A stretch of 64,000 bases of DNA. Source: Thioclava nitratireducens (GTDB taxonomy: Bacteria; Pseudomonadota; Alphaproteobacteria; Rhodobacterales; Rhodobacteraceae). The notes beneath the pieces were generated by a model. It had not been told where the DNA came from. It made no database searches and was given only the letters and a program-made list of their open reading frames with translations. Location of the stretch: positions 149,574-213,573 of the forward strand of contig NZ_CP019438.1 in assembly GCF_001940525.2 (NCBI RefSeq), given 5' to 3'. Below, piece by piece: positions 15,282 through 47,386 of this stretch. A program made the position numbers and the translations under genes. Positions within the stretch are counted from its first letter, which is position 1, and each line of letters begins with the position of its first letter.

Positions 15282-15701
15282 ATGCGCCTGACCAGTTTCA
15301 CAGATTTCGGACTCCGAGCGCTGATGCGGATGGCCAGCGGGCCGGAGCGTGCCTTCTCGACAGCCGAGATCGCCGATGAATTCGGTATCTCTCGCCACCA
15401 CCTGAATAAAGTCATTCAGCGCCTGGCCCGGCACGGCTTCGTGACCACGCGGCGCGGGACCGGTGGCGGCGCAATGCTCGGCCGTCCCGCCCACGAGATT
15501 GTTCTTGGAGACCTCGTGCGGCTTCTCGAGCAGGACCAGGCCATTGTCGAATGTTTTTTGCCTGACGGCGCGTGCTGCATTACCCCCGTCTGCGGCTTGA
15601 AGGGCAGACTCCGCGCCGCAGAGACCGCGTTTTTGGCAGAACTCGATCGTTCGACGCTGGCAGACATCGCCTTGCCGGCCACTGTTTCATCTGCGGTCTG
15701 A
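15282..15701 (+). CDS. nsrR: Rrf2 family regulator, NsrR-like (copy 1)
   Basis: A 139-residue Rrf2 protein. The N-terminal DNA-binding domain reads MRLTSFTDFGLRALMRMA with helix-turn-helix around residues 25-50. Cysteines are C91, C98, C99 and C104 in ECFLPDGACCITPVCGLK. Three Cys near this spacing ligate the NO-sensitive [4Fe-4S] cluster of NsrR, and C91, C99 and C104 are shared with the paralogue at 40958. NsrR represses NO-defence genes until NO destroys its cluster. GGAGG lies 7 bp before the ATG. A DUF6522 gene follows after 12 bp, and HemN, NorE/NorF and globin genes lie downstream, supporting the NsrR assignment over IscR. Confidence 0.85.
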   Translation: MRLTSFTDFGLRALMRMASGPERAFSTAEIADEFGISRHHLNKVIQRLARHGFVTTRRGTGGGAMLGRPAHEIVLGDLVRLLEQDQAIVECFLPDGACCITPVCGLKGRLRAAETAFLAELDRSTLADIALPATVSSAV

Positions 15702-17646: not shown

Positions 17647-17670
17647 ATTGGTATTTACAATGCGCATTCA
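17647..17670. promoter_or_regulatory. NsrR-type operator candidate B
   Basis: An A+T-rich site with the core GGTATTTACAATGC, identical over these 14 bases to site C, in the divergent hemN-norE region about 90 bp before norE. The right arm (GCATTC) pairs less well than at sites C and D. Inference: control of norEF and possibly hemN. Confidence 0.55.
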
Positions 17671-17689
17671 AATAGTGCAGGGAGAGATC

Positions 17690-19131: not shown

Positions 19132-19154
19132 AATAGGTATTTACAATGCTTATT
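19132..19154. promoter_or_regulatory. NsrR-type operator candidate C
   Basis: A 23-bp imperfect palindrome (outer arms AATA/TATT, core GGTATTTACAATGC) 13 bp before the first globin start codon, at a position where repressor binding would overlap the promoter and leader. The core equals that of site B and most of it is shared with site D. Confidence 0.6.
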
Positions 19155-19167
19155 TTGCGGAGATAGC

Positions 19168-19643: not shown

Positions 19644-19658
19644 CCAAAGGATACCAAC

Positions 19659-20482: not shown

Positions 20483-20871
20483 TGCCGTCAGCAAGCCCCC
20501 CCACCTCCGAAGCTCCTGGCGAGCTTATCCGCGTCAAGCGGATCTATCGCGCGGCACGCGTGTCAGATGGCAAGCGGATATTGGTCGATCGTCTCTGGCC
20601 GCGCGGCATGGCGAAGGACCGCGCCAGACTGTTTCACTGGTGCAAGGAGACCGCGCCGAGCGACGAATTGCGGCGCTGGTTCCACGAGCACCCTGATAGG
20701 TGGCAGGAGTTCACCACGCGTTATGAGGCGGAACTTGCCGCTCATGACGATTTGGTCCGCGAGCTCGCCGGATATGCACGCGAGAACGTCGTTACGCTAC
20801 TTTATGCTTCAAAGGACGAGGCACATAATAACGCCGTCGTGTTACGCGATTACCTGCGCCAATGGTTATAG
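20482..20871 (+). CDS. DUF488 domain protein (copy 1)
   Basis: A 129-residue DUF488 protein. Landmarks are RIYRAARVSDGKRILVDRL followed by WPRGMAKDRARL, and the C-terminal LYASKDEAHNNAVVLRDYL, both typical of the family. The biochemical role is unknown; the conserved Cys of some family members is present as W-C-K near residue 53. The gene is translationally coupled to the AhpD-like gene and lies 16 bp before the nitronate monooxygenase; the same order recurs in module 2. Confidence 0.88.
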   Translation: MPSASPPTSEAPGELIRVKRIYRAARVSDGKRILVDRLWPRGMAKDRARLFHWCKETAPSDELRRWFHEHPDRWQEFTTRYEAELAAHDDLVRELAGYARENVVTLLYASKDEAHNNAVVLRDYLRQWL

Positions 20872-20887
20872 AACGGGAGGAGCAAGC

Positions 20888-21901
20888 ATGACGGACCAGC
20901 CAATAAACCCGCTGCACACACCGCTTTGCGACCTGCTGGGGTGCGCCCAGCCAGTTCTGCTGGCCGGGATGGGCGGCGTTTCCCGCTGGGAACTGGCCGC
21001 CGCCGTGGCCAATGCGGGCGGTTACGGGATTTTGGGCATGGTGCGCGAAGACCCAGCCCTGATCGCCGCAGAGGTTACTGCGCTGCGGGACGCGACTGAC
21101 CGACCTTTTGCCGTCAACTTGATCCCCGCGGCGACCGAACCAGCGCTGCTCGATGCGCAGATCGCCTGCTGTCTCGATCTTGGCGTGCCGGCCTTCAGCT
21201 TTTTCTGGGACGTGATGCCTGACGTGGTGGCCCGCGTGAAACGTGCCGGTTGCCTTGTTCTGCATCAGGTCGGCACGGTCGAGGCCGCGCGGATCGCCGA
21301 AGAGGCCGGAGCGGATGTGATCATCGCGCAGGGCGTCGAGGCGGGCGGTCACGTGCATGGACGACACCCGGCTTTCGGGCTGGCCGAGCAAATCCTTGCG
21401 CAGACCGACCTGCCGGTCGTCGTCTCCGGAGGGATCGCAACGGGCGAGGGCCTCGCCGCCGCGTTGACCATCGGCGCCGATGGCGTGCAATGCGGCACGG
21501 CCTTTCTGGCGACCGAGGAATCCTTCGCTCATCCCTATCACAAATCCCGAATCACGGAGGCCACCGGCGACCACACGGTTCTGACCGATGTTTTCGTTCT
21601 GAATTGGCCCAAGGGCGCTGCGGTGCGGGTGATCGCCAATAGCGTGACCGAGAGCCTGGACGGACATTACCTCGGCCACGACCCTGACAGTCTTCCGCGC
21701 GAGGCCATCGCCCGCGACGGCGAGCAGCCGCGCCTGCGCTTCAGCACGGATTCGCCGCTGCGAACCACGACCGGCGACTTGGAGGCGATGGCACTCTATG
21801 CGGGTCAGGGTGTGGGTGCGCTCAACGATGTCCCCACGGCCGCCGCACGTCTGGACGGCATGGTCGCGCAGGCCCGTCATCTCTTGGAACACCCGTTTTG
21901 A
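20888..21901 (+). CDS. Nitronate monooxygenase (2-nitropropane dioxygenase family, copy 1)
   Basis: A 337-residue FMN-dependent TIM-barrel enzyme of the nitronate monooxygenase family, which oxidises alkyl nitronates or propionate-3-nitronate to carbonyl compounds and nitrite. The phosphate and FMN motifs are PVLLAGMGGVSRWELAAAV and VVSGGIATGEGLAAAL; GVEAGGHVHGR carries the His expected at the active site. It starts behind CGGGAGGA. It is the last gene of module 1, and its near twin is at 43145. The linked NO-defence genes suggest detoxifying nitro compounds formed under nitrosative stress, which is inference. Confidence 0.9.
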   Translation: MTDQPINPLHTPLCDLLGCAQPVLLAGMGGVSRWELAAAVANAGGYGILGMVREDPALIAAEVTALRDATDRPFAVNLIPAATEPALLDAQIACCLDLGVPAFSFFWDVMPDVVARVKRAGCLVLHQVGTVEAARIAEEAGADVIIAQGVEAGGHVHGRHPAFGLAEQILAQTDLPVVVSGGIATGEGLAAALTIGADGVQCGTAFLATEESFAHPYHKSRITEATGDHTVLTDVFVLNWPKGAAVRVIANSVTESLDGHYLGHDPDSLPREAIARDGEQPRLRFSTDSPLRTTTGDLEAMALYAGQGVGALNDVPTAAARLDGMVAQARHLLEHPF

Positions 21902-22259
21902 CGTGCTTTTAAGTCGAAGCCGTGAACGACGAATTTAAGAGCTCAGCTGCCAAGGTTGCTTTTGCTCACCACCTCGCTTTGCGCGCCGGTCAGAGAACTG
22001 GCGCGACTGCTTCCCGCGTGGATGGTCGTCTAACGATCAGTTATGGACCCTCGGTCGCGGCATGAAGCCTCTGACAGACATACTCGGTTCGATCGACCAA
22101 AGGGCGGACGAAACCTTGCCGGAAGGAGTTTTTTCGATCCCGCGAAAGCACTACGCAGCGAGCCCGAACGCGAGGTGACCGATCGGGAATGTTCCAGCAG
22201 GATACCGAACGCGAGCGACAGGCCGCTGGGAAAGGACAAGAGCGGAAATTGATCGCAGA
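21902..22259. other. Intergenic region, no gene recognised
   Basis: About 360 bp between the convergent nitronate monooxygenase and LysR genes. Short frames on both strands lack motifs or ribosome sites. No clear terminator hairpin with a T run is visible. Confidence 0.5.
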
Positions 22260-33502: not shown

Positions 33503-34324
33503 GGCTTTGTCGCAAACTTCTGCGGTTGACGCGAGGGGGGCCGGAGCCAGACGTTGCGTTCATCCAACAACACCAGATAGAGGTGGAGCGATGATCTCGT
33601 TCAAGGGCGCGCAGTTTCCGAAGGAAGTGATCCTCTTCGCAGTGTTCTTCTATGTCCGCTACACGGTCTCGTATCGTGACCTCGAAGAGATCATGGCCGA
33701 GCGAGGCGTACGAGTTGACCATGCGACGCTGAACCGCTGGGTGACCAAGTACTCGCCGCTGATCGCAGTTTCGGCTCGGCGGCGGAAAGTCCCGGCGGAT
33801 CGATCCTGGCGGATGGATGAGACCTACATCAAGGTAAAGGGTGAGTGGGTCTACCTCTACCGAGCTGTCGACAAGCTGGGCAAAACCCTTGATTTCATGC
33901 TGTCGAAGCGGCGCAACAAGACGGCTGCGACCAAGTTCTTCGCGCGCGCCCTTGAGGTGAACGGCCTGCCTCGCAAGATCGTCATTGACCGCAGCGGAGC
34001 CAATACCGCAGGGATCACCGCGGTAAACCGCATGCTCCGGAACTTTGGATGCCCGATCCCCATCGAGATGGTCCGGATCAAATATCTGAACAACATGGTC
34101 GAACAGGATCACCGTACCATCAAGAAGCGCATTCGTCCGATGCTGGGGTTCAAGTCCTTCGTCTCCGCGTCGGCAACGCTCGAAGGGATTGAAGTCGCGA
34201 ACATGATCCGCAAGGGGCAGTTCACACCCGGACTATGCCCTTTTGCCCAATTCGCCGCTCTGGCCGCATAAGTCAGTATGTCCAGTGGCTTCGCCGGCAC
34301 GACGTCAAAGTTTGCGACAAAACC
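33503..34324. mobile_element. IS6 family element, type B copy 1 (822 bp)
   Basis: Ends read GGCTTTGTCGCAAACTTCTG (left) and GGTTTTGTCGCAAACTTTG inward from the right. Left flank is a broken reductase gene; right flank is the 5' region of a DUF5602-like gene. There is no direct 8-bp duplication, but the 9 bases after its right end reappear inverted after the outer end of copy 2. Where compared, it agrees with copy 2 at the two positions where copy 3 differs. Confidence 0.95.
33591..34271 (+). CDS. IS6 family transposase (type B copy 1)
   Basis: A 226-residue IS6 family DDE transposase. Catalytic residues are in SWRMDETYIKVKG (D), KIVIDRSGAN (D) and NNMVEQDHRTIKKR (E), with an N-terminal helix-turn-helix (YRDLEEIMAERGVRVDHATL). 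The start at 33591 matches the IS6 N-terminus MISFKGAQFPKEV. Complete and presumably active. Confidence 0.95.
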   Translation: MISFKGAQFPKEVILFAVFFYVRYTVSYRDLEEIMAERGVRVDHATLNRWVTKYSPLIAVSARRRKVPADRSWRMDETYIKVKGEWVYLYRAVDKLGKTLDFMLSKRRNKTAATKFFARALEVNGLPRKIVIDRSGANTAGITAVNRMLRNFGCPIPIEMVRIKYLNNMVEQDHRTIKKRIRPMLGFKSFVSASATLEGIEVANMIRKGQFTPGLCPFAQFAALAA

Positions 34325-35002: not shown

Positions 35003-35824
35003 GGTTTTGTCGCAAACTTTGACGTCGTGCCGGCGAAGCCACTGGACATACTGACTTATGCGGCCAGAGCGGCGAATTGGGCAAAAGGGCATAGTCCGGG
35101 TGTGAACTGCCCCTTGCGGATCATGTTCGCGACTTCAATCCCTTCGAGCGTTGCCGACGCGGAGACGAAGGACTTGAACCCCAGCATCGGACGAATGCGC
35201 TTCTTGATGGTACGGTGATCCTGTTCGACCATGTTGTTCAGATATTTGATCCGGACCATCTCGATGGGGATCGGGCATCCAAAGTTCCGGAGCATGCGGT
35301 TTACCGCGGTGATCCCTGCGGTATTGGCTCCGCTGCGGTCAATGACGATCTTGCGAGGCAGGCCGTTCACCTCAAGGGCGCGCGCGAAGAACTTGGTCGC
35401 AGCCGTCTTGTTGCGCCGCTTCGACAGCATGAAATCAAGGGTTTTGCCCAGCTTGTCGACAGCTCGGTAGAGGTAGACCCACTCACCCTTTACCTTGATG
35501 TAGGTCTCATCCATCCGCCAGGATCGATCCGCCGGGACTTTCCGCCGCCGAGCCGAAACTGCGATCAGCGGCGAGTACTTGGTCACCCAGCGGTTCAGCG
35601 TCGCATGGTCAACTCGTACGCCTCGCTCGGCCATGATCTCTTCGAGGTCACGATACGAGACCGTGTAGCGGACATAGAAGAACACTGCGAAGAGGATCAC
35701 TTCCTTCGGAAACTGCGCGCCCTTGAACGAGATCATCGCTCCACCTCTATCTGGTGTTGTTGGATGAACGCAACGTCTGGCTCCGGCCCCCCTCGCGTCA
35801 ACCGCAGAAGTTTGCGACAAAGCC
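35003..35824. mobile_element. IS6 family element, type B copy 2 (822 bp)
   Basis: Same element as copy 1 in the opposite orientation, with left end GGTTTTGTCGCAAAC and right end GGCTTTGTCGCAAAC reading inward. Together with copy 1 it encloses 678 bp that are inverted relative to the rest of the oxidase operon. It is in the same orientation as copy 3 at 46565, so copies 2 and 3 are direct repeats around 10.7 kb. Confidence 0.95.
35056..35736 (-). CDS. IS6 family transposase (type B copy 2)
   Basis: A 226-residue transposase with the same translated sequence as copy 1 (MISFKGAQFPKEV to FAQFAALAA, with ITAVNRMLRNF in the middle). DDE residues and helix-turn-helix as described for copy 1. Complete. 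Confidence 0.95.
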   Translation of the reverse strand: MISFKGAQFPKEVILFAVFFYVRYTVSYRDLEEIMAERGVRVDHATLNRWVTKYSPLIAVSARRRKVPADRSWRMDETYIKVKGEWVYLYRAVDKLGKTLDFMLSKRRNKTAATKFFARALEVNGLPRKIVIDRSGANTAGITAVNRMLRNFGCPIPIEMVRIKYLNNMVEQDHRTIKKRIRPMLGFKSFVSASATLEGIEVANMIRKGQFTPGLCPFAQFAALAA

Positions 35825-35883: not shown

Positions 35884-36162
35884 TTATCTTGCTTGGACAG
35901 CCCTGTTCGGATGACCGACTGGAAACGTGCTCTTGCCCAGAATCTCGCCACGGGCATCCACGATCAACCGCAGGGCGCGGCTCTGGTGACGGAATGTCAA
36001 TCGCCAACGGCCCGCGTCCTCACCCTCTCCCGTTTCGCAAAGAGATGCGATTTGCCCGCCTTGCATCCGGTGACGGGTTTCTTCGACGGACAGGTCAAAC
36101 GCGTCGGCCAGAACCAGCGCATCGACGACGAATTGGTCCCCGCGTCGTTCAACGTCGGTCAT
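35884..36162 (-). CDS. DUF6522 family protein (copy 2)
   Basis: A 92-residue protein related to the product of 15714-16013 (shared DAGRWRLTF and the RALRLIVDARGEILGKSTFP tail pattern). Its ATG overlaps the upstream gene stop (ATGA), so it is the last surviving gene of the minus-strand oxidase operon. Originally the DUF5602-like and cupredoxin genes followed it. Function unknown; it recurs with NO-related and cbb3 genes. Confidence 0.75.
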   Translation of the reverse strand: MTDVERRGDQFVVDALVLADAFDLSVEETRHRMQGGQIASLCETGEGEDAGRWRLTFRHQSRALRLIVDARGEILGKSTFPVGHPNRAVQAR

Positions 36163-36392
36163 GTCCTGTCTTGCCAGTAGTCATTTGCCGACGCGACGGT
36201 GGCGAAATGCGTCGCGACCACCTGGCTGACAGCGATAAGGGCATCGGAGTCTTCGGCGTATTCCGGCCGCAACCGGTCGCGCACCTCGGCGTCTGGTTGG
36301 GTCAGCTTCACAGCGACGCGTGCAAGCTTTACCGCAAGGTCATAACCCTCTTCGGGCGTTGCCGTTTTAAGTGTCGGTAGCCAATCTGCCAT
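36159..36392 (-). CDS. Small hypothetical protein in the cbb3 operon
   Basis: A 77-residue soluble protein, mostly helical (GYDLAVKLARVAVKLTQPDA, SDALIAVSQVVATHFATVAS). The ATG at 36392 follows GAAGGAAAA and overlaps the 3' end of ccoS; its stop overlaps the DUF6522 start. I do not recognise a family. Co-expression with cbb3 assembly genes is evident from the overlaps. Confidence 0.6.
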   Translation of the reverse strand: MADWLPTLKTATPEEGYDLAVKLARVAVKLTQPDAEVRDRLRPEYAEDSDALIAVSQVVATHFATVASANDYWQDRT

Positions 36393-36552
36393 CGGGTTTT
36401 CCTTCCATTTCGAGTGGGTGATGAGGGGGGATGATGCGCCACGCGGCACCATCAGGGTCATCGAACTGTCCGTTTCTGAGCGCCCAGAAAAACGCGCAGA
36501 GACCTAGCAAACCTAGTCCGAGCGAGAGAGGTATGAGCAACAGGAAGCTCAC
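36367..36552 (-). CDS. ccoS: cbb3 oxidase assembly protein CcoS
   Basis: A 61-residue single-helix membrane protein. The helix LLLIPLSLGLGLLGLCAFFW is followed by ALRNGQFDDPDGAAWRI, the near-invariant CcoS motif (GQFDDxxG). CcoS is needed to mature the haem b/copper subunit of cbb3 oxidase. It overlaps the DUF2189 stop by four bases. The usual partners ccoG, ccoH and ccoI are absent here, so this operon relies on copies elsewhere. Confidence 0.92.
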   Translation of the reverse strand: MSFLLLIPLSLGLGLLGLCAFFWALRNGQFDDPDGAAWRIIPPHHPLEMEGKPDGRLATDT

Positions 36553-37346
36553 TGCCGCTCACCTGCGATTGCCTGGTAAGCATGCCAGGTGCCGTGACCA
36601 AGAACCGGGAACAGGACGATCAGCCCAATCAGGCCGGTTACGACTGACAGGCCCAATCCCAGGGCGACAAACAGACCCCAAACCAGCATGGGGCGCAGAT
36701 TTTGCACCGCCATGACAAAACTCAGCCCCATGGCGGTCAGCGCATCGGTCTTGCGCGACACCAGCATGGGAATGGAAAAGACGCTGATCGCGAAGGCGAA
36801 GGCCGCGAACAACCCGCCCACCAGGGTACCGGTGATAACTAGCGCCCATCCCCGTGGCGTCGTCAATGCGTTGGTCAACGCCTCCTCCGCGCCGGGGAAC
36901 GGGCTAAGGCCAAAAAACAGCGCATAGAGCAAGTCCGCAGCCCTGAGCCAGAACAGGACGAGCAGTCCGAGCAGCAATCCCGCATAGGCCAATTGCCCGC
37001 CCGACGCCGGCCGGAACACCAGCATGTCGGAAAGCGAAACCTGTTCACCCTGCGCCTGCCTGTGGCTTTTCTCGTAAAGCCCGATCGCCAGGAACGGACC
37101 GACAATCAGGAAACCGGAGATCGCGGGCAGCGCGAGATACAAGAGATGGCTAGCGTTGAGCGCCCAGAGGACCGCATAGGATACCAGTGTCAGGAACAGC
37201 CCATAGGCAAGGCTGGACCACGGAGCCTTGCGGACATCACGCCAACCTGCTCGCAACCAGTCCGCCGCCGAAGTCGATGGCAGGTTGCGTGCGTGGGGCG
37301 AGGCCGGCCGATCCGGGTTTCGCAAGGTTGGTAGTGGTTCCAGCAT
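36549..37346 (-). CDS. DUF2189 family membrane protein
   Basis: A 265-residue membrane protein with about six helices, resembling the DUF2189 family found beside alphaproteobacterial cbb3 and other oxidase genes. Landmarks are AADWLRAGWRDVRKAPWSSL and the C-terminal GHGTWHAYQAIAG. The ATG at 37346 is preceded by AAAAGGAGA. It overlaps ccoS by ATGA. Function unknown; position suggests assembly or regulation of the oxidase. Confidence 0.8.
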   Translation of the reverse strand: MLEPLPTLRNPDRPASPHARNLPSTSAADWLRAGWRDVRKAPWSSLAYGLFLTLVSYAVLWALNASHLLYLALPAISGFLIVGPFLAIGLYEKSHRQAQGEQVSLSDMLVFRPASGGQLAYAGLLLGLLVLFWLRAADLLYALFFGLSPFPGAEEALTNALTTPRGWALVITGTLVGGLFAAFAFAISVFSIPMLVSRKTDALTAMGLSFVMAVQNLRPMLVWGLFVALGLGLSVVTGLIGLIVLFPVLGHGTWHAYQAIAGERQ

Positions 37347-37359: not shown

Positions 37360-37518
37360 TCAGCAGGACCGCCTGGCAGGCATCGCCCCGGCCGTTTCGC
37401 GGCAATCCGGCTGCGATCGCAGGGCAACGGTCAGCAGATGCGCATTCGCGGCGAGGAACAGCAGGACGGCGGCCAGCGCCGCGCCGACCGCCAACCGTTT
37501 TTGTACGGCCGGCCTCAT
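37360..37518 (-). CDS. Small single-helix protein after ccoP
   Basis: A 52-residue protein with one helix (LAVGAALAAVLLFLAANAHL) and a basic cytoplasmic start (MRPAVQKR). Its ATG overlaps the ccoP stop (ATGA) and it is followed by the DUF2189 ribosome site. The coupling shows it belongs to the operon. I do not recognise a family; it may be a small accessory subunit. Confidence 0.6.
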   Translation of the reverse strand: MRPAVQKRLAVGAALAAVLLFLAANAHLLTVALRSQPDCRETAGAMPARRSC

Positions 37519-38426
37519 TGTTCGCCTCCTACAGATTGGCCAAGCCGGGCCACATAGAGCGCCAGGAGGTTGATTTCGGCCTCTGACAGGCGACCCGACC
37601 AAGCCGGCATCACCCCATGACGCCCGCGTCGGAGCGTTTGCATCACCGTTCCCGGGTCCTGTCCATAAATCACGGCCTCATCCGTAAGGGACGGTGCGCC
37701 GATTTCGAGACCGCCGTCCCCTGTCGAACCGTGGCACGAACTGCAATTCTCTGCGAAGACCGTGCCCACGGAACTTTCGAAATCGACAGCTCCACCGGGC
37801 ATCTCGGAAACGAAATCGGCCAAGGCTAACCGATCAGACCGCTCCATCCAGTCAAAGGCCGGCATTTCGGCATAGCGGGTGTCGGGATCGTCGGCATTGA
37901 TGCCATGACGGATCGTCGTGGCGATTTCTCCGGCGTCACCGCTCCAGAGCCACGTGTCGTCCGACAGGACCGGAAAGCCCGGCCCTCCCTGCCCGTTCGT
38001 GCCGTGGCAAGCCGCGCAGTTATCGGCGAACAGGCGCGCGGCGACGGGCATTGCGGTCGCCATCAGTGTCGCGTCGGATTGCAGAGCGACGAAATTCTCG
38101 CCCTCGAAACGAGACAGCCAGTCCTGCCGCCTATCGGCAAGGCTGTTGAAGCCCTTGATCGCTTCTTCGCTCTGGTCCAGCCCGAGCAAGCCACGTGTGT
38201 AATCGCGTCCGGTCGGCCAGGCGGGCAAGAGAACCCAGGCAACGACCGAATAAAGAAACGTCAGCACCAGTGCCCAGATCACGACCTTCGGGAACGCGGT
38301 ATTGAGCTCGGTGATGCCGCCCCAGTCGTGCCCCGTGGTGTCGTAGCCGGTGACCGGATCGGTCTTGCGAATGCCCGTATGAGGATCGGCGCCCGGCAGT
38401 TGCCTCGGATCGGTCGGGTTAGTCAT
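37515..38426 (-). CDS. ccoP: cbb3-type cytochrome c oxidase subunit CcoP (dihaem)
   Basis: A 303-residue membrane-anchored dihaem cytochrome c. One helix (VVIWALVLTFLYSVVAWVLL) anchors the periplasmic part, which has two haem motifs, C137AAC-H141 and C228SSC-H232, with Met ligands further on (AEMPAF, GVMPAW). The N-terminal TGHDWGGITELNTAFPK is the standard CcoP start (TxHxWDGIxELNNPLP). The ATG at 38426 overlaps ccoQ by 8 bp. It delivers electrons from cytochrome c to CcoN. Confidence 0.96.
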   Translation of the reverse strand: MTNPTDPRQLPGADPHTGIRKTDPVTGYDTTGHDWGGITELNTAFPKVVIWALVLTFLYSVVAWVLLPAWPTGRDYTRGLLGLDQSEEAIKGFNSLADRRQDWLSRFEGENFVALQSDATLMATAMPVAARLFADNCAACHGTNGQGGPGFPVLSDDTWLWSGDAGEIATTIRHGINADDPDTRYAEMPAFDWMERSDRLALADFVSEMPGGAVDFESSVGTVFAENCSSCHGSTGDGGLEIGAPSLTDEAVIYGQDPGTVMQTLRRGRHGVMPAWSGRLSEAEINLLALYVARLGQSVGGEQ

Positions 38427-38583
38427 CTCCGCCCTCCTTTGAAGGCAGCACGGACCGGGCGGCGGCGTCATAGGCCTTGCGCCGTGACGGGCTGTAGGCG
38501 CGGATGACGACAATCAGGAAGCATCCCATCAGCCAGATCAGGCCAACCGTCTTGGACAGATAGACCAGCATGTCATGGGTCAT
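38419..38583 (-). CDS. ccoQ: cbb3-type oxidase small subunit CcoQ
   Basis: A 54-residue protein between ccoO and ccoP: one helix (TVGLIWLMGCFLIVVIRAY) and a charged C-terminus with RRKAYDAAARSVLPS, as in CcoQ/FixQ subunits that stabilise the complex. Its ATG overlaps the ccoO stop (ATGA) and its end overlaps ccoP by 8 bp. Confidence 0.88.
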   Translation of the reverse strand: MTHDMLVYLSKTVGLIWLMGCFLIVVIRAYSPSRRKAYDAAARSVLPSKEGGDD

Positions 38584-39308
38584 TGGGATCCCTCCGCCAG
38601 TATCCGGTAGGGCGCATCGGTCAAGGAGCCCAGCGACTGGAGATAGGCCAAAAGCGCATCCATCTCTGTCAGGCGAGACGGATTGCCATCGAAGACACGG
38701 GCCGCAGGACGTTCGCCGTAACGCTCCAGAAATCCGTCCACCGCGTCGCTGTCGGGGCGGCTTTGCGCCAGGGCATCGGCTTCCGCCGCCGCGATCATGT
38801 CCTCGTCATAGGGTACGCCAAGCCGGGCCAGCGTGGCCAGCGCGTCAGACAACAGATCGGTATCAAGGGGACGCGTCAGCCAAGGGTAGGACGGCATGAT
38901 CGAGGCCGGCACCACGCTGCGAGGGTCGATCAGGTGCGCCACATGCCAGTCGTCCGAATACTTGCCGCCCAGTCGCGCCAGATCCGGGCCGGTGCGCTTC
39001 GATCCCCAGAGCATCGGGTGATCGTAGGCACTTTCCGAGGCCAGCGAATAGGGACCGTAGCGGTCCAGCTCATCGGCCAGGCTGCGCACCATCTGGCTGT
39101 GGCAGGCATAACAACCCTCGCGGATATAGATCTCGCGGCCCGCCAGTTCCAATGGCGTATGAGGGCGCAGGTCATCGGGAAGCTCAACCGTCTCGTCGAT
39201 GGTGAACAGTGGCGCGATTTCCACGATCCCGCCAATCGAAGCGGCCACGATGATTGCGGCCACCAGCCCCATGGAGATTTTTTCCAGATTATAGTGCAGT
39301 TTCAGCAT
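38580..39308 (-). CDS. ccoO: cbb3-type cytochrome c oxidase subunit CcoO (monohaem)
   Basis: A 242-residue membrane-anchored cytochrome c. The N-terminal helix (ISMGLVAAIIVAASIGGIVE) precedes the haem motif C66YAC-H70 in EGCYACHSQMVR, and GPDLARLGGKY and SIMPSYPWL (Met ligand) follow, all standard for CcoO. The start at 39308 follows GGAG at good spacing and lies 4 bp after the ccoN stop; an upstream ATG at 39353 lies inside ccoN. Confidence 0.96.
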   Translation of the reverse strand: MLKLHYNLEKISMGLVAAIIVAASIGGIVEIAPLFTIDETVELPDDLRPHTPLELAGREIYIREGCYACHSQMVRSLADELDRYGPYSLASESAYDHPMLWGSKRTGPDLARLGGKYSDDWHVAHLIDPRSVVPASIMPSYPWLTRPLDTDLLSDALATLARLGVPYDEDMIAAAEADALAQSRPDSDAVDGFLERYGERPAARVFDGNPSRLTEMDALLAYLQSLGSLTDAPYRILAEGSQ

Positions 39309-39312
39309 GGGC

Positions 39313-40938
39313 TCACTCCGCCGGCTGCGCGACAAGGGGGCGGTCGGTGGCATCCCCCGTCGTTCCGCGCATCGTTGCGCGACAGTTCCAGGCGCAGATC
39401 ACAGCCCCGGTCAGGAACAGCCCGCCGCCGATGGTGCGCAACAGGTAATAGGGGGCCATCGCCTCCACCGACTGGACAAAACTGTAGGATAGCGCGCCGT
39501 TCTCGTTATAGGCCCGCCACATGAGCCCCTGCGTGATGCCGGCATTCCACATCGACACGACGTAGACGAGTGTTCCGGCGACGGCGAGCCAGAAGTGCCA
39601 TTCGACGGCCCGTGGCGACGCCATCTCCGTCTTGCCACTGAGCTGAGGAACGAGCGTATAGATCGCGCCAAAGACGATCATCGCCACCCAGCCAAGTGTG
39701 CCGGAATGGACGTGGCCCACGGTCCAGTCGGTATAGTGCGACAGCGAATTGACCGGGCGAATGGCGAGGAACGATCCTTCGAAGGTCGACAGCCCATAGA
39801 ACACCGCGGCCACGAACATGAAGCGCAGCGTGGCGTCATCGCGCACCTTGTGCCATGCGCCGTTCAGAGTGGCGATGGCGTTGCCCGCCGAGGCCCAGCT
39901 TGGCACCAGCAACATTACCGAGAATGTCATGCCGAGCGTCTGCGCCCAGTAAGGCAGCGCGGTGTAATGCAGGTGGTGCGAGCCCACCCAGATATAGAAG
40001 AAGGTGATGCCCCAGAAGCTGACGATCGACAGGCGGTAGGACCAGATCGGTCGCCCGGAACGCACCGGGAGGAAATAATAGAGCATCCCGAGGAACCCCG
40101 CGGTCAGGAAGAAGGCAACCGCATTGTGGCCATACCACCATTGCACCATGGCATCCTGCACGCCCGACCAGATCGGAAAGCTCTCTGCAGTCGTCCAGCG
40201 CACGGGAAGGGCGATGTTGTTGACGATGTGCAGCATCGCGACGACGAGGATGAAGGCCAGGTAATACCAGTTGGCGACATAGATATGCGGCTCGTTCCGG
40301 CGGGCAAGCGTGCGGATATACAAGACGAAATACGTCACCCAGATCACCACCAGCCAAAGATCCGCATACCATTCGGCCTCGGCATATTCCTTGGATTGGG
40401 TTGACCCCATCAGATAGCCGGTGACGGCCCAGGCGCAAAACAGGTTGTAGCCGATGAGCACGACCCAGGGGCTCAGATTGTCGGCGAGCCGCGCGCGCGA
40501 GGTGCGTTGCAGGACGTGGAAAGACGTGGCGATCAGCGCGTTGCCGCCAAAGCCGAAGATAATCCCGGTGGTGTGCACGGGACGCAGTCGACCGAAGCTG
40601 GTAGCCGGCCAAGGCGGCGTTCCCTCTGGCCAGTACAAGAGCGCTGCAACCCAGACTCCGATTCCCATGCCGATCATCGCCCAGATCAGTGTCATGACGA
40701 GTCCGAAACGGGTCGGCGCGTCGTAGTAGCGCTGCAACCGATTGGCCGGTGGTTCGGGATCATAAAGCGCGCCGCCGAGCAGAAATGCGAACGCGATCCC
40801 GAGCCCGAGCGCCATGAACCCGTGGGTCGACATGACCCCGTGACGCGCCGATGCAGCCATGGCAAGGCCCATCAGGGCCAACAGGACCGACAGGGCCATG
40901 CCAACCCGACGTTCGGAAACCGACAACGATGCTGTCAT
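39313..40938 (-). CDS. ccoN: cbb3-type cytochrome c oxidase catalytic subunit CcoN
   Basis: A 541-residue, 12-helix haem-copper oxidase subunit I of the C family. Haem and CuB ligands are visible in RLRPVHTTGIIFGFGGNAL, WWYGHNAVAFFLTAGFLGML, SHHLHYTALPYWAQTLGM and the C-terminal DWTVGHVHSGTLGWVAM. It reduces oxygen at very low concentration and pumps protons; cbb3 enzymes are also known to reduce NO in vitro. It starts 19 bp after the stop of the NsrR-like gene, so the promoter lies in front of that regulator. This makes ccoNOQP part of the regulator transcript. Confidence 0.95.
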   Translation of the reverse strand: MTASLSVSERRVGMALSVLLALMGLAMAASARHGVMSTHGFMALGLGIAFAFLLGGALYDPEPPANRLQRYYDAPTRFGLVMTLIWAMIGMGIGVWVAALLYWPEGTPPWPATSFGRLRPVHTTGIIFGFGGNALIATSFHVLQRTSRARLADNLSPWVVLIGYNLFCAWAVTGYLMGSTQSKEYAEAEWYADLWLVVIWVTYFVLYIRTLARRNEPHIYVANWYYLAFILVVAMLHIVNNIALPVRWTTAESFPIWSGVQDAMVQWWYGHNAVAFFLTAGFLGMLYYFLPVRSGRPIWSYRLSIVSFWGITFFYIWVGSHHLHYTALPYWAQTLGMTFSVMLLVPSWASAGNAIATLNGAWHKVRDDATLRFMFVAAVFYGLSTFEGSFLAIRPVNSLSHYTDWTVGHVHSGTLGWVAMIVFGAIYTLVPQLSGKTEMASPRAVEWHFWLAVAGTLVYVVSMWNAGITQGLMWRAYNENGALSYSFVQSVEAMAPYYLLRTIGGGLFLTGAVICAWNCRATMRGTTGDATDRPLVAQPAE

Positions 40939-40957: not shown

Positions 40958-41374
40958 TCATGCGGCCGCCCGTTCGGGAAGGGCGATATCGGCGAGCGTG
41001 GATCTGTTCAGATCGGCGATGAACCGACGCTCCGCCTGTCGAAGCCGGGATTTCAGGCGGCAACATCCCTCGATCGAACAGTCTCCGCCATCCGGCCCGA
41101 AACACTCGACGAGCGACTGTCCCTGTTCGAGCAGCCGCACGACGTCGCCAAGCCGGATGTCGGCCGGACTGGATCGCAAGACAGCGCCCCCATTCACCCC
41201 GCGTCGGGTCTCGACGATGTCTGCCTGCGCGAGCCGTTGCATGATCTTCGCCAGGTGGTTGCGCGACAGTTTGAACTCCTCTGCCAAATCTGCCGTTGAG
41301 AACGCCCGGTCGGGCGCGCTCGCCATCCGCATCAGCATTCGAAGTCCGTAGTCGGTGAAGGAGGTAAGGTTCAT
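40958..41374 (-). CDS. nsrR: Rrf2 family regulator, NsrR-like (copy 2)
   Basis: A 138-residue Rrf2 regulator paralogous to 15282-15701. DNA-binding domain MNLTSFTDYGLRMLMRMA with TADLAEEFKLSRNHLAKI; cysteines C91, C99, C104 and C105 in ECFGPDGGDCSIEGCCRLK. C91, C99 and C104 align with copy 1 and with the three cluster ligands of NsrR. The ATG at 41374 lies 19 bp from operator candidate D, which it shares with the divergent globin operon. It is first in an operon with ccoNOQP. NO-responsive repression of both sides is the natural inference; an oxygen or iron signal cannot be excluded. Confidence 0.87.
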   Translation of the reverse strand: MNLTSFTDYGLRMLMRMASAPDRAFSTADLAEEFKLSRNHLAKIMQRLAQADIVETRRGVNGGAVLRSSPADIRLGDVVRLLEQGQSLVECFGPDGGDCSIEGCCRLKSRLRQAERRFIADLNRSTLADIALPERAAA

Positions 41375-41392
41375 GGCATCCCGCAGATCTTC

Positions 41393-41417
41393 AAATTGGT
41401 ATTTACAACACCTATTT
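41393..41417. promoter_or_regulatory. NsrR-type operator candidate D, shared by two divergent operons
   Basis: A 25-bp palindrome with arms AAAT/ATTT and GGT/ACC around TTTACAA; 20 bases pair, five central or offset positions do not. It contains GGTATTTACAA as in sites B and C. Located 18 bp upstream of the nsrR-like start and 44 bp upstream of the globin GTG, it is placed to repress both directions at once. Confidence 0.65.
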
Positions 41418-41461
41418 AGCAGAGATAGCATGAGACTCAAGACCAATTTCCCGAGGGCCCC

Positions 41462-41905
41462 GTGTCGACTGCCGTCTCACAGATCAATTCCGCCCGCCCG
41501 CAAATGACTGCCGAGATCATGGCGCGGACCGGGCTGGACGAAGAAAAGCTGACCGAACTGGTGCATTGCTTCTATGGCAAGGTGCGCGCGGATCCGGCGC
41601 TTGGCCCGATCTTCGCTGAACGGATTTCGGATTGGGGCCCGCACTTGGAGCGCATGGTGGCCTTCTGGTGTTCGGTCGCCTTGATGACGGGCCGGTATCA
41701 CGGAGCCCCGGTCCCGGCGCATGTCGGCCTGCCCGTGGATTGGGATCATTTCGACCGCTGGCTGACGCTGTTCCGCGAAACCGCGGCCGAAACCTGCCCG
41801 CCCGAAGGCGCGGCGCATGTCATCGAACGCGCCGAGCGGATCGCGCGCTCGCTGCATATGGCGGTCGAGGATGCGAAGCCCCGGACAATTCCATCACTGC
41901 TCTGA
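41462..41905 (+). CDS. Group III truncated haemoglobin (copy 2)
   Basis: A 147-residue truncated globin. Group III features are the FYGKVRADPALGPIF helix, HLERMVAFWCSVALMTGRYH and GAPVPAHVGLP with the proximal His near residue 87. Such globins bind NO and oxygen and are thought to detoxify NO. The GTG at 41462 is used because the frame from the ATG at 41430, which follows the conserved AGAGATAGC leader, is out of frame by one base; in copy 1 the two starts are in frame. It begins the plus-strand operon divergent from the NsrR-like gene. Confidence 0.9.
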   Translation: MSTAVSQINSARPQMTAEIMARTGLDEEKLTELVHCFYGKVRADPALGPIFAERISDWGPHLERMVAFWCSVALMTGRYHGAPVPAHVGLPVDWDHFDRWLTLFRETAAETCPPEGAAHVIERAERIARSLHMAVEDAKPRTIPSLL

Positions 41906-41920
41906 CCCGAGGATACGAAC

Positions 41921-42406
41921 ATGACAAAACCAATGCCCCCGCAAGACCCGAGCGACCTGACCAGTTTCATCGAGACCGAGTATCACGCAAAACACCGTGC
42001 CCAGCTTCCTGAACTGGCGACCTTGTCGGAAAAGGTCGAAGCGGTCCATGCCGGGCAAACGGAGGTTCCCGCGGGTTTGGCCGACCTATTGCACCGGATG
42101 ATCGGTGACCTGGAAGTTCACATGAAGAAAGAGGAACTGATCCTGTTCCCCGCCATTCGCAACGCGGCGGCGGGGCTGGATGCGCCGATTGCGGCAATGC
42201 GCGCGGATCATGACAACCACGAAGCCGAAGTCGGCCAAATCCGGCACCTGACCAACAACCTGACATTGCCGGACGGCGCCTGCCGAAGCTGGACGCGGCT
42301 TTATACCGGGGTCGGTGAATTCCTTGACGACCTCGAAGAGCATATCCGGCTGGAAAACGATGTGCTGTTTCCGCAATTCGAAACGCGGGAGACGGGCCAT
42401 GTCTGA
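41921..42406 (+). CDS. Hemerythrin-domain protein (copy 2)
   Basis: A 161-residue HHE-domain protein. Carboxylate and His ligands for a di-iron site are in TEYHAKHRAQLPEL, LEVHMKKEELILFPAI, MRADHDNHEAEV and EEHIRLENDVLFPQF. It equals the C-terminal domain of RIC/YtfE, which repairs iron-sulfur clusters after nitrosative damage, without the N-terminal ScdA domain. It starts 15 bp after the globin stop and overlaps the AhpD-like gene by 8 bp. The intact frame shows what copy 1 has lost. Confidence 0.9.
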   Translation: MTKPMPPQDPSDLTSFIETEYHAKHRAQLPELATLSEKVEAVHAGQTEVPAGLADLLHRMIGDLEVHMKKEELILFPAIRNAAAGLDAPIAAMRADHDNHEAEVGQIRHLTNNLTLPDGACRSWTRLYTGVGEFLDDLEEHIRLENDVLFPQFETRETGHV

Positions 42407-42742
42407 GCTACACCTCCCGAAACCTACCAGGGACCTTGTCGACCGGCGTCATGCCCTGGCACCCGATGCCGAAGACGCATTCCGCGCGTTCTCGAAAGCG
42501 GTGTTCTCCGAAGGGGCGCTCGATACACGCACCAAGCAGCTCATCGCGGTGGCCGTGGCGCATGTGACTCAATGCCCGTGGTGCATCGAAGGCCACGTCA
42601 AGGCGGCCAAGCGTGAGGGGCCTCGGGCGAACAGATCATGGAAGCCATCTGGGTTGCATCCGAAATGCGCGCCGGGGCGGCCTGGGCCCACGCGCTGAAG
42701 GCGGTGGAGATGATCGGCGACACGGGCCAACCGGACAGCTGA
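42399..42742 (+). pseudogene. AhpD-like protein, frameshifted (copy 2)
   Basis: Begins like copy 1 (MSELHLPKPTRDLVDRRHAL) and retains the redox motif TQCPWCIEGHVKAAKREG. After that, a G is missing in GAGGGGCC near 42620 and the frame changes; the expected C-terminus (EQIMEAIWVASEMRAGAAW and on to GDTGQPDS) is readable one frame over, ending in a TGA that overlaps the DUF488 start. Adding one G restores a 114-residue protein. Sequencing error is a plausible alternative. Confidence 0.8.
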
Positions 42743-43161
42743 TGCCCCCTGCAAGGCCCCCCATCCCCGACACCCCCGGCGAGCGTATCCGCGTCAAGCG
42801 GATCTATCGCGCGGCGCGGGTGTCGGACGGCAAGCGGATTCTGGTCGATCGGCTTTGGCCACGCGGCGTGGCGAAGGACCGCGCCCGGCTGTTCGACTGG
42901 TGCAAGGACATCGCGCCTAGCGATACGTTGCGACACTGGTTTCATGCCAATCCTGATCAGTGGCAGGACTTCAGTACGCGCTACCGGGCGGAACTCGCCA
43001 CGCGCGAAGATTTGGTGTGTGAGCTTGCCGGATACGCGCAGGGCGATGTCGTCACGCTGCTCTATGCCTCTAAGGACGAGGAACACAATAACGCCGTCGT
43101 GCTGCGGGACTGCCTGCGCCGATGGTTGGAAAGGGAGGGGAAAAATGACAGACCAACATAG
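42742..43161 (+). CDS. DUF488 domain protein (copy 2)
   Basis: A 139-residue DUF488 protein, very similar to copy 1 (RIYRAARVSDGKRILVDRL, LYASKDEEHNNAVVLRD), with ten more C-terminal residues that overlap the nitronate monooxygenase start by 17 bp. The start overlaps the AhpD-like stop (TGATG). Function unknown; co-occurrence in both modules argues for a role in the same stress response. Confidence 0.88.
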   Translation: MPPARPPIPDTPGERIRVKRIYRAARVSDGKRILVDRLWPRGVAKDRARLFDWCKDIAPSDTLRHWFHANPDQWQDFSTRYRAELATREDLVCELAGYAQGDVVTLLYASKDEEHNNAVVLRDCLRRWLEREGKNDRPT

Positions 43162-44185
43162 TGCGGAACCTCTGCGAACGCCGCTTTGCGATCTGCTTGG
43201 ATGCGAGGCACCCGTCCTGCTGGCGGGCATGGGCGGCGTGTCCCGATGGGAACTGGCGGCGGCGGTGGCCAATGCGGGCGGCTACGGGATGTTGGGGATG
43301 GTGCGCGAACCCATCGACCTGATCACACGGGAGGTCACCGCGATGCGGGCGGCGACGGACCGGCCCTTCGCCGTCAACCTGATCCCGGCGGCGACAGAGC
43401 CGCAGTTGCTTGAGGCACAGATCGCCTGTTGCCTCGATCTTGGTGTGACGGCCTTCTGCTTTTTCTGGGATGTGATGCCGGATGTGGTGGCGCGGGTGAA
43501 AAACGCGGGATGTCTCGTATTGCATCAGGTCGGAACGGAGGCCGCCGCGCGGATGGCCGAAGCTGCCGGAGCGGATGTGATCATCGCACAGGGGATCGAG
43601 GCGGGCGGCCATGTGCACGGACGAAGTCCCGCCTTCGGGCTGGCGGAACGGATACTGGCCGGGACCGACCTGCCGGTCGTCGTCTCGGGCGGGATCGCGA
43701 CGGGCGAAGGGCTTGCCGCCGCATTGGCGATCGGGGCCAGCGGCGTGCAATGCGGCACCGCCTTTCTGGCGACCGAAGAATCCTTTGCGCATTCCTATCA
43801 CAAGTCTCGCATCGTCGAGGCCACGGGCGAGGATACGGTGCTGACCGATGTGTTCGTTCTGAACTGGCCCAAGGGCGCTGCGGTGCGGGTGATCGGCAAC
43901 AGCGTGACGGAGGGTCTCAAGGGCAATTACCTGGGTCAGGACCCGGACAGCCTGCCGCGCGAGACCATCGCCCATGACGACGATCAGCCCCGCCTGCGCT
44001 TCAGCACGGATTCACCCTTGCGCACCACAACCGGCGATCTGGAAGCGATGGCGCTCTATGCCGGTCAGGGCGCGGGAAACATCCCCGATGTCGTCCCTGC
44101 GGCCGCACGTCTGAACGCCATGGTCGCGCAGGCCCGGCATATCCTGAAGGGCCCAATCCGTAACGGTTTCACGGCGATGTCATGA
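43145..44185 (+). CDS. Nitronate monooxygenase (copy 2)
   Basis: A 346-residue FMN enzyme nearly the same as copy 1 (PVLLAGMGGVSRWELAAAV; GIEAGGHVHGRSPAFGLAE; VVSGGIATGEGLAAALAI). It should oxidise alkyl nitronates with release of nitrite. A GGAGGGGAAAA ribosome site precedes the ATG, which overlaps DUF488. Its stop overlaps the following folate gene (ATGA), extending the operon beyond the part conserved in module 1. Confidence 0.9.
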   Translation: MTDQHSAEPLRTPLCDLLGCEAPVLLAGMGGVSRWELAAAVANAGGYGMLGMVREPIDLITREVTAMRAATDRPFAVNLIPAATEPQLLEAQIACCLDLGVTAFCFFWDVMPDVVARVKNAGCLVLHQVGTEAAARMAEAAGADVIIAQGIEAGGHVHGRSPAFGLAERILAGTDLPVVVSGGIATGEGLAAALAIGASGVQCGTAFLATEESFAHSYHKSRIVEATGEDTVLTDVFVLNWPKGAAVRVIGNSVTEGLKGNYLGQDPDSLPRETIAHDDDQPRLRFSTDSPLRTTTGDLEAMALYAGQGAGNIPDVVPAAARLNAMVAQARHILKGPIRNGFTAMS

Positions 44186-44877
44186 GCGACGACTTCAAGA
44201 GCTTCCGCTGCCAAAGCGGCTTTTCCTCACCGCCCTGCTATGCCGCCGAGGTCGCACCGGAGTATTTCGATCCGCTGGCTGTCGATCCCGAGCAGGCACG
44301 TGATGTCGCGCGTTGGCGCAAGGCCGAACGCACCCGTCTGCGCGCCGCCCGTCTGGCACTGTCGGTTGCTGAACGCAAGGAGATCGGCGAGGCGCTGGCC
44401 GGGCATCTGCGACAGGTGTTGAAAGACCGCTTCGGCGGGGCACCGGGCAAAGTCTTTTCCGCCTACTGGCCGATCAAGGGCGAACCCGACCTGCGCCCGC
44501 TGATGGTCGAGCTTCACAAGGCCGGTATAACCGTCGCCCTGCCACTGGTCGAAACCAGGGCGGCCCCGCTCACCTTTCGCCGCTGGACGCCCGAAACCCG
44601 TATGGTGCGCGGCGATTGGAACATACCCGTTCCGCCGCCGGACGCCCCCGTCGTCCGGCCCGATATCGCGCTTGCCCCCCTCGTCGGCTGGACGGCGGAT
44701 GGCTATCGCCTCGGCTATGGCGGGGGCTATTTCGACCGGACATTGGCGGCGCTTGACCCGAAACCTTTTGTCATCGGCATTGGTTTCAAGTCGGCACAGC
44801 TCAAAACCATCTACCCGCAACCCCACGATATCCCCCTCGACCTCATCCTGACCGAGGCCGGATTGCACAGCGGTTGA
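44182..44877 (+). CDS. 5-formyltetrahydrofolate cyclo-ligase family protein
   Basis: A 231-residue member of the 5-formyltetrahydrofolate cyclo-ligase family, which uses ATP to convert 5-formyl- to 5,10-methenyltetrahydrofolate. Key segments are RTRLRAARLALSVAERKEIG, FSAYWPIKGEPDLRPLM and the glycine-rich DGYRLGYGGGYFDRTLAAL. It is about 40 residues longer at its N-terminus than typical bacterial enzymes. Translational coupling to the nitronate monooxygenase (ATGA) places it in the globin operon; why folate repair belongs there is unclear. Confidence 0.88.
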   Translation: MSDDFKSFRCQSGFSSPPCYAAEVAPEYFDPLAVDPEQARDVARWRKAERTRLRAARLALSVAERKEIGEALAGHLRQVLKDRFGGAPGKVFSAYWPIKGEPDLRPLMVELHKAGITVALPLVETRAAPLTFRRWTPETRMVRGDWNIPVPPPDAPVVRPDIALAPLVGWTADGYRLGYGGGYFDRTLAALDPKPFVIGIGFKSAQLKTIYPQPHDIPLDLILTEAGLHSG

Positions 44878-46564: not shown

Positions 46565-47386
46565 GGTTTTGTCGCAAACTTTGACGTCGTGCCGGCGAAG
46601 CCACTGGACATACTGACTTATGCGGCCAGAGCGGCGAATTGGGCAAAAGGGCATAGTCCGGGTGTGAACTGCCCCTTGCGGATCATGTTCGCGACTTCAA
46701 TCCCTTCGAGCGTTGCCGACGCGGAGACGAAGGACTTGAACCCCAGCATCGGACGAATGCGCTTCTTGATGGTACGGTGATCCTGTTCGACCATGTTGTT
46801 CAGATATTTGATCCGGACCATCTCGATGGGGATCGGGCATCCAAAGTTCCGGAGCATGCGGTTTGCCGCGGTGATCCCTGCGGTATTGGCTCCGCTGCGG
46901 TCAATGACGATCTTGCGAGGCAGGCCGTTCACCTCAAGGGCGCGCGCGAAGAACTTGGTCGCAGCCGTCTTGTTGCGCCGCTTCGACAGCATGAAATCAA
47001 GGGTTTTGCCCAGCTTGTCGACAGCTCGGTAGAGGTAGACCCACTCACCCTTTACCTTGATGTAGGTCTCATCCATCCGCCAGGATCGATCCGCCGGGAC
47101 TTTCCGCCGCCGAGCCGAAACTGCGATCAGCGGCGAGTACTTGGTCACCCAGCGGTTCAGCGTCGCATGGTCAACTCGTACGCCTCGCTCGGCCATGATC
47201 TCTTCGAGGTCACGATACGAGACCGTGTAGCGGACATAGAAGAACACTGCGAAGAGGATCACTTCCTTCGGAAACTGCGCGCCCTTGAACGAGATCATCG
47301 CTCCGCCTCTATCTGGTGTTGTTGGATGAACGCAACGTCTGGCTCCGGCCCCCCTCGCGTCAACCGCAGAAGTTTGCGACAAAGCC
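46565..47386. mobile_element. IS6 family element, type B copy 3 (822 bp)
   Basis: Same ends and length as copies 1 and 2, oriented like copy 2. Two base differences from both other copies are visible (GCTCCGCC for GCTCCACC before the gene, TTTGCC for TTTACC inside it). The flanks CCAGCGGT and TCAGCGCT are not an exact duplication. Left flank is a cut rRNA-modifying gene and right flank a cut IS5, marking another recombination junction. Confidence 0.95.
46618..47298 (-). CDS. IS6 family transposase (type B copy 3)
   Basis: A 226-residue transposase equal to copies 1 and 2 except Ala for Val in ITAANRMLRNF. All catalytic residues are kept, so it is probably functional. Confidence 0.95.
   Translation of the reverse strand: MISFKGAQFPKEVILFAVFFYVRYTVSYRDLEEIMAERGVRVDHATLNRWVTKYSPLIAVSARRRKVPADRSWRMDETYIKVKGEWVYLYRAVDKLGKTLDFMLSKRRNKTAATKFFARALEVNGLPRKIVIDRSGANTAGITAANRMLRNFGCPIPIEMVRIKYLNNMVEQDHRTIKKRIRPMLGFKSFVSASATLEGIEVANMIRKGQFTPGLCPFAQFAALAA

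Follow-up and report, generated by a model that had tools for sequence, protein, structure and literature searches.

What controls a cbb3-type oxidase operon that lies behind an NsrR-type regulator and back to back with genes for defence against nitric oxide (NO)? This question is raised by a locus of Thioclava nitratireducens (assembly GCF_001940525.2), which we analysed within a window of 64,000 nucleotides (NZ_CP019438.1, positions 149,574 to 213,573; positions below are those of the window unless a contig is named). The window is part of the 213.6-kb contig C2 (= NZ_CP019438.1) of the 4.24-Mb genome, which is G000 in our genome collection. Here, a gene for an Rrf2-family regulator leads a cco operon, a truncated globin gene leads a divergent operon, and a 25-bp palindrome lies between the two. 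We consider it likely that a repressor inactivated by NO would release both operons and thereby provide the cell with an alternative cbb3 oxidase to respire with when NO is present. The sequences themselves show the arrangement of the genes, the conservation of the operator and of the regulator's ligand residues, the contrast with canonical cco promoters and the CcoN subfamily. Of this reading, binding of the palindrome, repression, NO sensing and NO-tolerant respiration are the parts that we infer from sequence comparisons.

A conserved palindrome between the divergent operons

The gap between the regulator–cco and globin operons is 87 bp long, and the 25-mer AAATTGGTATTTACAACACCTATTT occupies positions 41393-41417 within it. 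The preliminary description of this DNA took the palindrome for the only strong candidate operator between the two units. Judged by symmetry alone, the case is weak: 9 of 12 pairs match, 1.5% of 5000 Markov-shuffled 87-bp gaps equal that value, and 51 places in the window are just as symmetric. Symmetry alone was therefore dropped as evidence, and we count the palindrome as real because it is conserved across relatives, which is the part of the claim that held.

Relatives of the regulator were obtained by scanning a collection of species genomes with an alignment of nine regulators. There were at least 525 of them, and the best 79 loci were kept. A search of the 110 bp upstream of the regulator found the core GGTATTNNNAATACC with no, one or two mismatches in 40, 16 and 18 loci, respectively, and thus with two or fewer in 74 of the 79; three loci had three mismatches and two had more. 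Letter-shuffled upstream sequences reached two or fewer mismatches in 0.34% of cases. In 73 of the 74 loci the centre of the site was 24–33 bp ahead of the regulator start; the remaining locus had it at 57 bp. Across relatives, the consensus is TAATAGGTATTGTAAATACCnATTC. Compared with the published NsrR consensus gATGyAT-N5-ATrCATc, which is beta-/gammaproteobacterial, the N5 spacing is the same and the half-site TAGGTAT agrees in 5 of 7 letters.

The operator-anchored logo contains a moderately conserved TTG; if this is taken as part of a -35 element, the corresponding -10 element falls on the left edge of the operator. The candidate elements of the gap are the following:

41393..41417, no strand assigned: predicted shared operator of the regulator–cco and globin operons, conserved ahead of the regulator start in relatives; core GGTATTNNNAATACC on the minus strand with 1 mismatch
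41435..41440, minus strand: putative -35-like hexamer TTGAGT of the regulator–cco promoter, from the TTG of the logo; not listed by the consensus promoter scan
41413..41418, minus strand: putative -10-like hexamer TAAATA, 16-bp spacer, from the logo; overlaps the operator
41402..41431, plus strand: promoter-like TTTACA-18-TAGCAT of the globin operon with its -35 within the operator, from the consensus scan only; 0.1 expected in shuffles

Since the operator overlaps both putative promoters, a bound protein should block both. The proposal that one operator serves both divergent units thus drew support from the comparison of relatives, and we retain it as probable.

Genes of the two operons

Gene families of the window were assigned with Pfam and NCBIfam. 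The sequence and its open reading frames (ORFs) confirmed the two divergent units previously placed at 40958..44877, and the coordinates agreed with a distance of 19 bp between the regulator stop and the ccoN start. The unit formed by an nsrR-like gene and ccoNOQP was recovered as described; the run of cco genes extends beyond it, through DUF2189, ccoS, HTHP and DUF6522, to position 35884. The regulator–cco operon reads:

40958..41374, minus strand: NsrR-type Rrf2 regulator, 138 aa, with Asp8, Cys91, Cys99 and Cys105 (family models, PDB match)
39313..40938, minus strand: ccoN, cbb3 oxidase subunit I, Ser-type subfamily (S307, S320, S389; family models, alignment)
38580..39353, minus strand: ccoO (family models)
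38419..38583, minus strand: ccoQ (family model)
37515..38426, minus strand: ccoP (family models)
36549..37346, minus strand: DUF2189 membrane protein, a common companion of Ser-type cbb3 (family model, gene order of relatives)
36367..36552, minus strand: ccoS, assembly (family model)
36159..36395, minus strand: HTHP, hexameric tyrosine-coordinated heme protein (family model)
35884..36162, minus strand: DUF6522 (family model)

The cytochrome c subunits CcoO and CcoP of cbb3 are present, as judged from matches to PF02433, PF13442, PF00034 and PF14715. The globin operon reads:

41462..41905, plus strand: truncated globin; same-order homologues are annotated as group III truncated hemoglobin (family model, relatives)
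41921..42406, plus strand: hemerythrin near the YtfE/RIC iron-sulfur (Fe-S) repair family, below equivalog cut-offs (family models)
42399..42698, plus strand: AhpD/CMD-family gene, frameshifted (family model, relatives)
42742..43161, plus strand: DUF488, inactive N3i subclade by Pfam
43145..44185, plus strand: nitronate monooxygenase (NMO) family (family model)
44182..44877, plus strand: 5-formyltetrahydrofolate cyclo-ligase family (family model)

The AhpD-like gene (42399-42745) has 347 bases versus 348 in four relatives, which indicates a frameshift; this could be real decay or a homopolymer error. As far as homology goes, the presence of NO-defence genes opposite cco was borne out.

The regulator resembles NsrR

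The regulator carries an Rrf2 domain (PF02082, 117.5 bits; cut-off 30). Its closest solved relative is PDB entry 5n07 (E 3.3e-19), which we take to be NsrR of Streptomyces coelicolor. Asp8, Cys91, Cys99 and Cys105 were aligned to 5n07, and all four are invariant in all of the 79 best related loci; these four residues are presumably the cluster ligands of S. coelicolor NsrR. The earlier assignment as NsrR-like is supported by this match, by the Asp8/Cys pattern and by NsrR being the best-scoring model.

Operator-like sites elsewhere in the genome

With up to two mismatches, the pattern ATNGGTATTNNNAATACCNAT was found at four places in the organism's own genome, all on contig C2, and a control with the reversed pattern gave none. 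Two of the sites and a second regulator gene belong to a paralogous module in the window:

17647..17667, no strand assigned: operator-like site, 2 mismatches, between hemN (minus) and a norE-like COX3-family gene (plus) (genome pattern search)
19133..19153, no strand assigned: operator-like site, 2 mismatches, ahead of the paralogous globin operon (genome pattern search)
15282..15701, plus strand: paralogous NsrR-type regulator, 62% identical, DUF6522 behind it (regulator comparison)

The module spans 15282-21916 and comprises an NsrR-type regulator, DUF6522, hemN, norE-like, globin, hemerythrin, AhpD, DUF488 and NMO genes, of which globin-hemerythrin-AhpD-DUF488-NMO form a second globin operon behind the 19133-19153 site. 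The fourth site, at C2:22575, belongs to a second copy of the hemN/norE-like stretch. By homology, the NO-defence content at the operator sites thus consists of the operons for globin and YtfE/RIC-like hemerythrin, hemN and the norE-like gene.

Some further features of these copies were observed. The hemN and norE-like stretch occurs twice on the contig (C2 around 21.1-24.1 kb, locus L159, and window 16150-18576), with the same operator-like site between the genes. In the paralogous module the globin is split over two frames and the AhpD-like gene reads through 114 residues, the reverse of the situation in the 41-44 kb module. A third NsrR-type regulator (L053, C2:18516-18920) is 59% identical; two separated GGTATT/AATACC half-sites and no single palindrome lie ahead of it.

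Outside this genome, a search with ATNGGTATTNNNAATACCNAT gave three sites in genome G024, one in G025 and one in G017. One further site in G024 lies ahead of genes read as DUF6522 and AhpD-like, adjoining an aa3-type oxidase gene; the other lies within an open frame and looks like chance.

These sites bear on what the regulator senses. In a RirA- or IscR-like role, it would respond to Fe-S cluster supply, iron or oxygen rather than to NO, and as an Rrf2 protein it does match RirA (92 bits) and, weakly, IscR (39 bits). We regard such a role as unlikely: the Asp8 and three-Cys pattern is present, the best PDB match is NsrR, the operator has the N5 spacing and 5 of 7 half-site letters of the published NsrR consensus, and the own-genome sites are at globin operons, cco, hemN and norE-like genes, with no iron-uptake or suf/isc gene, as annotated, among them.

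Linkage of regulator, oxidase and globin in relatives

Linkage of an Rrf2 gene to cco had been called unusual. This was not upheld, since 33 of the 79 best loci have a full ccoN directly behind the regulator (counting L144 and excluding a remnant in L082). In 23 of the 79, ccoN and a divergent globin gene occur together.

Three gene orders place globin and cco under the operator motif, one of them divergent and two colinear. The second order is globin-DUF488-NMO-ccoS-ccoNOP-DUF2189, with the operator ahead of globin in the two cases that were checked (L156 of G017, and L255). The third is globin-DUF2189-ccoNOQP, again with the operator ahead of globin and with 1–2 mismatches (L257-L260).

Other loci lack the oxidase. 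In L083 and L086, HTHP and DUF6522 come immediately behind the regulator, and cco is absent. L082 retains a 37-residue ccoN remnant between the regulator and HTHP, from which we conclude that cco was lost there. No cco gene is annotated behind the regulator of a Thioclava plasmid. Regulator loci such as L083, L086 and that on the Thioclava plasmid indicate that the oxidase is an optional cassette. As a separate observation, HTHP stands behind the regulator, in some cases with DUF6522 and in none with full cco genes, in L083, L086, L077, L098 and L082.

The unit is also found on plasmids, in Defluviimonas sp. SAOS-178_SWC (with an NnrS gene at its end) and in Roseinatronobacter sp. S2. Defluviimonas denitrificans DSM 18921 has the module as well. 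On a conjugative plasmid of Sphingobium amiense, the genes close to a Ser-type ccoN operon (68% identical) include hmpA and those for a group III truncated hemoglobin, an Rrf2 protein and a nitric-oxide reductase. Between the hemoglobin and Rrf2 genes, the classical NsrR consensus is matched twice (1 and 2 mismatches); the Rhodobacterales-type operator was not found in this plasmid stretch.

In the T. nitratireducens window itself there are three near-identical transposases of the IS6/IS240 type (33507-34271, 35056-35820 and 46618-47382). Two of them, in the same orientation, flank a 10.8-kb stretch with the regulator–cco–globin genes in the manner of a translocatable unit. A frame between the first two was read as a broken cupredoxin-like gene and had no Pfam match.

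The oxidase belongs to a distinct CcoN subfamily

CcoN of the locus shares 52% identity with the genome's own canonical CcoN. It passes the CcoN equivalog TIGR00780 narrowly (590.9 bits; cut-off 583.15), and the other above-cut-off matches in 115 genomes of the class score 636.6-827.3 bits. Residues 307, 320 and 389 correspond to 243, 256 and 325 of the P. stutzeri enzyme. From the set of 42 regulator-linked or colinear CcoN sequences, four rows that repeated the same genome had been removed beforehand. Residues 320 and 389 are Ser in all 42 and Pro in 7 of 7 canonical sequences; residue 307 is Ser in all 42 and His in the 7. Thirty alphaproteobacterial CcoN (the best family matches, one of them the canonical gene of the same genome) all have Pro at 320 and 389, and His (29) or Ser (1) at 307. 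Among five lower-scoring CcoN of the class, L217-L219 have three Ser without a close regulator or globin match, and L220 and L221 are canonical.

In a CcoN tree, supported clades were obtained for the 34 regulator-linked rows (100/98) and for the 7 canonical rows (100/96). The 8 colinear rows were placed between these clades and formed none with support themselves; some branches were long. On these sequence criteria, the CcoN described here is a member of a distinct Ser-type cbb3 subfamily. A more distant heme-copper oxidase-like subunit is encoded elsewhere in the genome (L011, C1:2470093-2471358); it is 35% identical to CcoN, and its nearest model is ccoN, at 262.6 of 583 bits far below the cut-off.

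The positions H60, H207, Y251, H257, H258, H345 and H347 are kept in 42 of 42 regulator-linked or colinear CcoN, and the Glu323 position is kept in Ser-type CcoN as well. We take the six His to be the heme and CuB ligands and Y251 to be the cross-link Tyr of cbb3. The genome also encodes a copper nitrite reductase (nirK; TIGR02376, 475.7 bits, cut-off 296.3) together with NorB and NorC (best PDB matches 775 bits for NorB and 217 bits for a NorC-like protein). NO could therefore arise from the organism's own denitrification.

These data also address the suggestion that NO induces the cbb3 enzyme as a functional NO reductase, which would convert NO to N2O. The logic of induction would be the same, the clade-specific CcoN changes adjoin CuB ligands, and NO reductase activity has been reported for cbb3 of P. 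stutzeri and R. sphaeroides in the accessible parts of two papers (PMC9266656, PMC8780969). We found nothing that specifically supports this option, and we hold it to be improbable: the positions of the oxidase ligands, Tyr251 and Glu323 are kept, and the genome has its own nirK and separate norB and norC genes. Likewise, CcoN as a cNOR NorB-like subunit was rejected, as its best PDB relatives are cbb3 chains (6.2e-158 or better) and its match to NorB is weak (1.8e-5; 27 bits versus 775 for the real NorB of the genome).

Operator and FNR box ahead of Ser-type and canonical ccoN

To compare promoter elements, we used 34 linked operons found via the regulator (including the remnant L082 and without L144) and 37 canonical rows, which count one gene twice (L010, L183); upstream stretches of 200 bp (linked) and 600 bp (canonical) were read. 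The operator was present in 34 of 34 regulator-linked operons versus 0 of 37 canonical ones, and an FNR box with at most one mismatch in 0 of 34 versus 25 of 37. NnrR-type boxes were rejected as real control elements, since two or fewer mismatches occurred in 4 of 34 (11.8%) versus 6.8% in shuffles, which is no clear excess.

A test independent of the regulator was a CcoN search of 292 genomes of the order, of which the best 30 loci were read. These comprised 22 Ser-type (14 with three Ser, 7 Gly-Ser-Ser and 1 Gly-Ala-Ser) and 8 canonical loci. The operator, with two or fewer mismatches, was found ahead of the first gene in 13 of the 22 Ser-type operons (7 led by the regulator, and L253, L255 and L257-L260), and two more (L261, L264) have an Rrf2 gene nearby that is 38–40% identical. 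A two-mismatch match about 0.66 kb ahead of ccoN in L250 is within an open frame and was not counted. When 4000 bp upstream of ccoN were read in 16 of the Ser-type loci, no FNR box came to light beyond those of L251 and L254 described below. All 8 canonical loci had an FNR box with at most one mismatch in the 500 bp ahead of ccoN.

We consider it very improbable that only the globin operon and the regulator gene itself are under the operator, with ccoN transcribed from an internal promoter under oxygen control. In favour of this option, an FNR box does occur at two Ser-type cco operons elsewhere. Against it, the gap before ccoN is 19 bp; the linked operons lack such a box, with at most one mismatch, in the 200 bp read (a stretch outside the regulator gene); and where globin and cco are colinear, both lie behind the operator on the same strand.

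A model for NO-released respiration

In the model that we favour, the NsrR-type repressor encoded next to the palindrome would use it as its operator. In its cluster-bearing form, the repressor would sit on the back-to-back promoter, covering the -10 element of the regulator–cco promoter and part of the globin promoter, and keep both operons off. NO would attack the cluster, and the repressor would leave the DNA. Both operons would then be made, yielding on one side the truncated globin, the hemerythrin of Fe-S-repair type and their companions, and on the other an alternative cbb3 with its own assembly factors. This oxidase may be a specialised isoform that, under NO, takes the place of the FNR-controlled cbb3 or serves as its backup, so that oxygen respiration continues.

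Several points weigh against this model. The regulator's top NCBIfam model is the NsrR equivalog PRK11014, but its score of 113.1 bits misses the cut-off of 182, and we therefore call it NsrR-type rather than an NsrR equivalog. In 46 of the 79 regulator loci there is no full ccoN behind the regulator. Seven of the 22 Ser-type operons have neither the operator nor a nearby regulator; in two of these, L251 and L254, an FNR box lies about 2.5 kb upstream of ccoN, at 8 and 54 bp, respectively, before a frame read as ccoI, and the other five have no FNR box either. Hence, NsrR-type control of the Ser-type enzyme is not universal, and the Pro-to-Ser changes as a mark of NO-controlled enzymes only are ruled out; they may mark ancestry rather than NO tolerance. 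Finally, the heme-copper oxidases tested, including the cbb3 enzymes of V. cholerae and R. sphaeroides, were strongly inhibited by NO, with the exception of one mycobacterial aa3 enzyme, according to the available part of PMC9266656. In Sphingopyxis granuli, ccoNOQPG transcripts are reported to fall with NO (PMC6472365, in part). In light of these two reports, a cbb3 under an NO-type repressor is unexpected, and it suggests a tolerant isoform.

Comparison with known systems

Among the titles and abstract openings retrieved by searches of open PMC papers, none described an NsrR-controlled cbb3 operon. The following parallels draw on the accessible portions of the papers cited. In Vibrio fischeri, NsrR controls an NO-induced terminal oxidase, the alternative oxidase (AOX), which is reported to be NO-resistant (PMC5156696). 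According to that paper, AOX is not directly linked to proton motive force, whereas the enzyme here is a heme-copper cbb3, a type reported to be NO-sensitive. MpaR-ccoN4 of Pseudomonas aeruginosa likewise combines a regulator gene beside a special CcoN, a palindromic motif and induction by a heme-copper oxidase poison; however, MpaR is of the GntR family and required for expression, the signal is cyanide, and ccoN4 is an orphan subunit rather than a complete operon (PMC10790758).

The beta- and gammaproteobacterial NsrR regulons (Rodionov 2005, PMC1274295) share an Rrf2 repressor, a palindrome with an N5 spacer and globin/dnrN-type targets with our locus, but differ in the half-site, GATGYAT there and TAGGTAT here. 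According to that paper, NsrR occurs among alphaproteobacteria only in R. capsulatus E1F1; the term cbb3 is absent from its main text. The FNR-controlled canonical ccoNOQP of alphaproteobacteria encodes the same enzyme family and subunits, and the Ser-type operon differs from it in the promoter element, in its companions (DUF2189, HTHP, DUF6522) and in Ser in place of Pro256 and Pro325.

Implications

A wider proposal is possible, and we put it forward tentatively. The cbb3 subfamily marked by Pro256Ser and Pro325Ser, beside a CuB ligand and the active-site glutamate, may have evolved to respire oxygen amid NO, either by tolerating NO or by oxidising or reducing it at the same centre. It would be under NsrR-type rather than FNR control in most operons and would travel, sometimes on plasmids, with the truncated globin and DUF2189 as an NO-respiration module across Rhodobacterales, Rhizobiales and Sphingomonadales. 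The two named residues and the one operator make this question directly testable. The cbb3 oxidase is known as an oxygen-controlled and NO-sensitive enzyme; an isoform under an NO-type repressor, together with NO-defence genes, would explain how oxygen respiration can go on in denitrifying and NO-exposed alphaproteobacteria.

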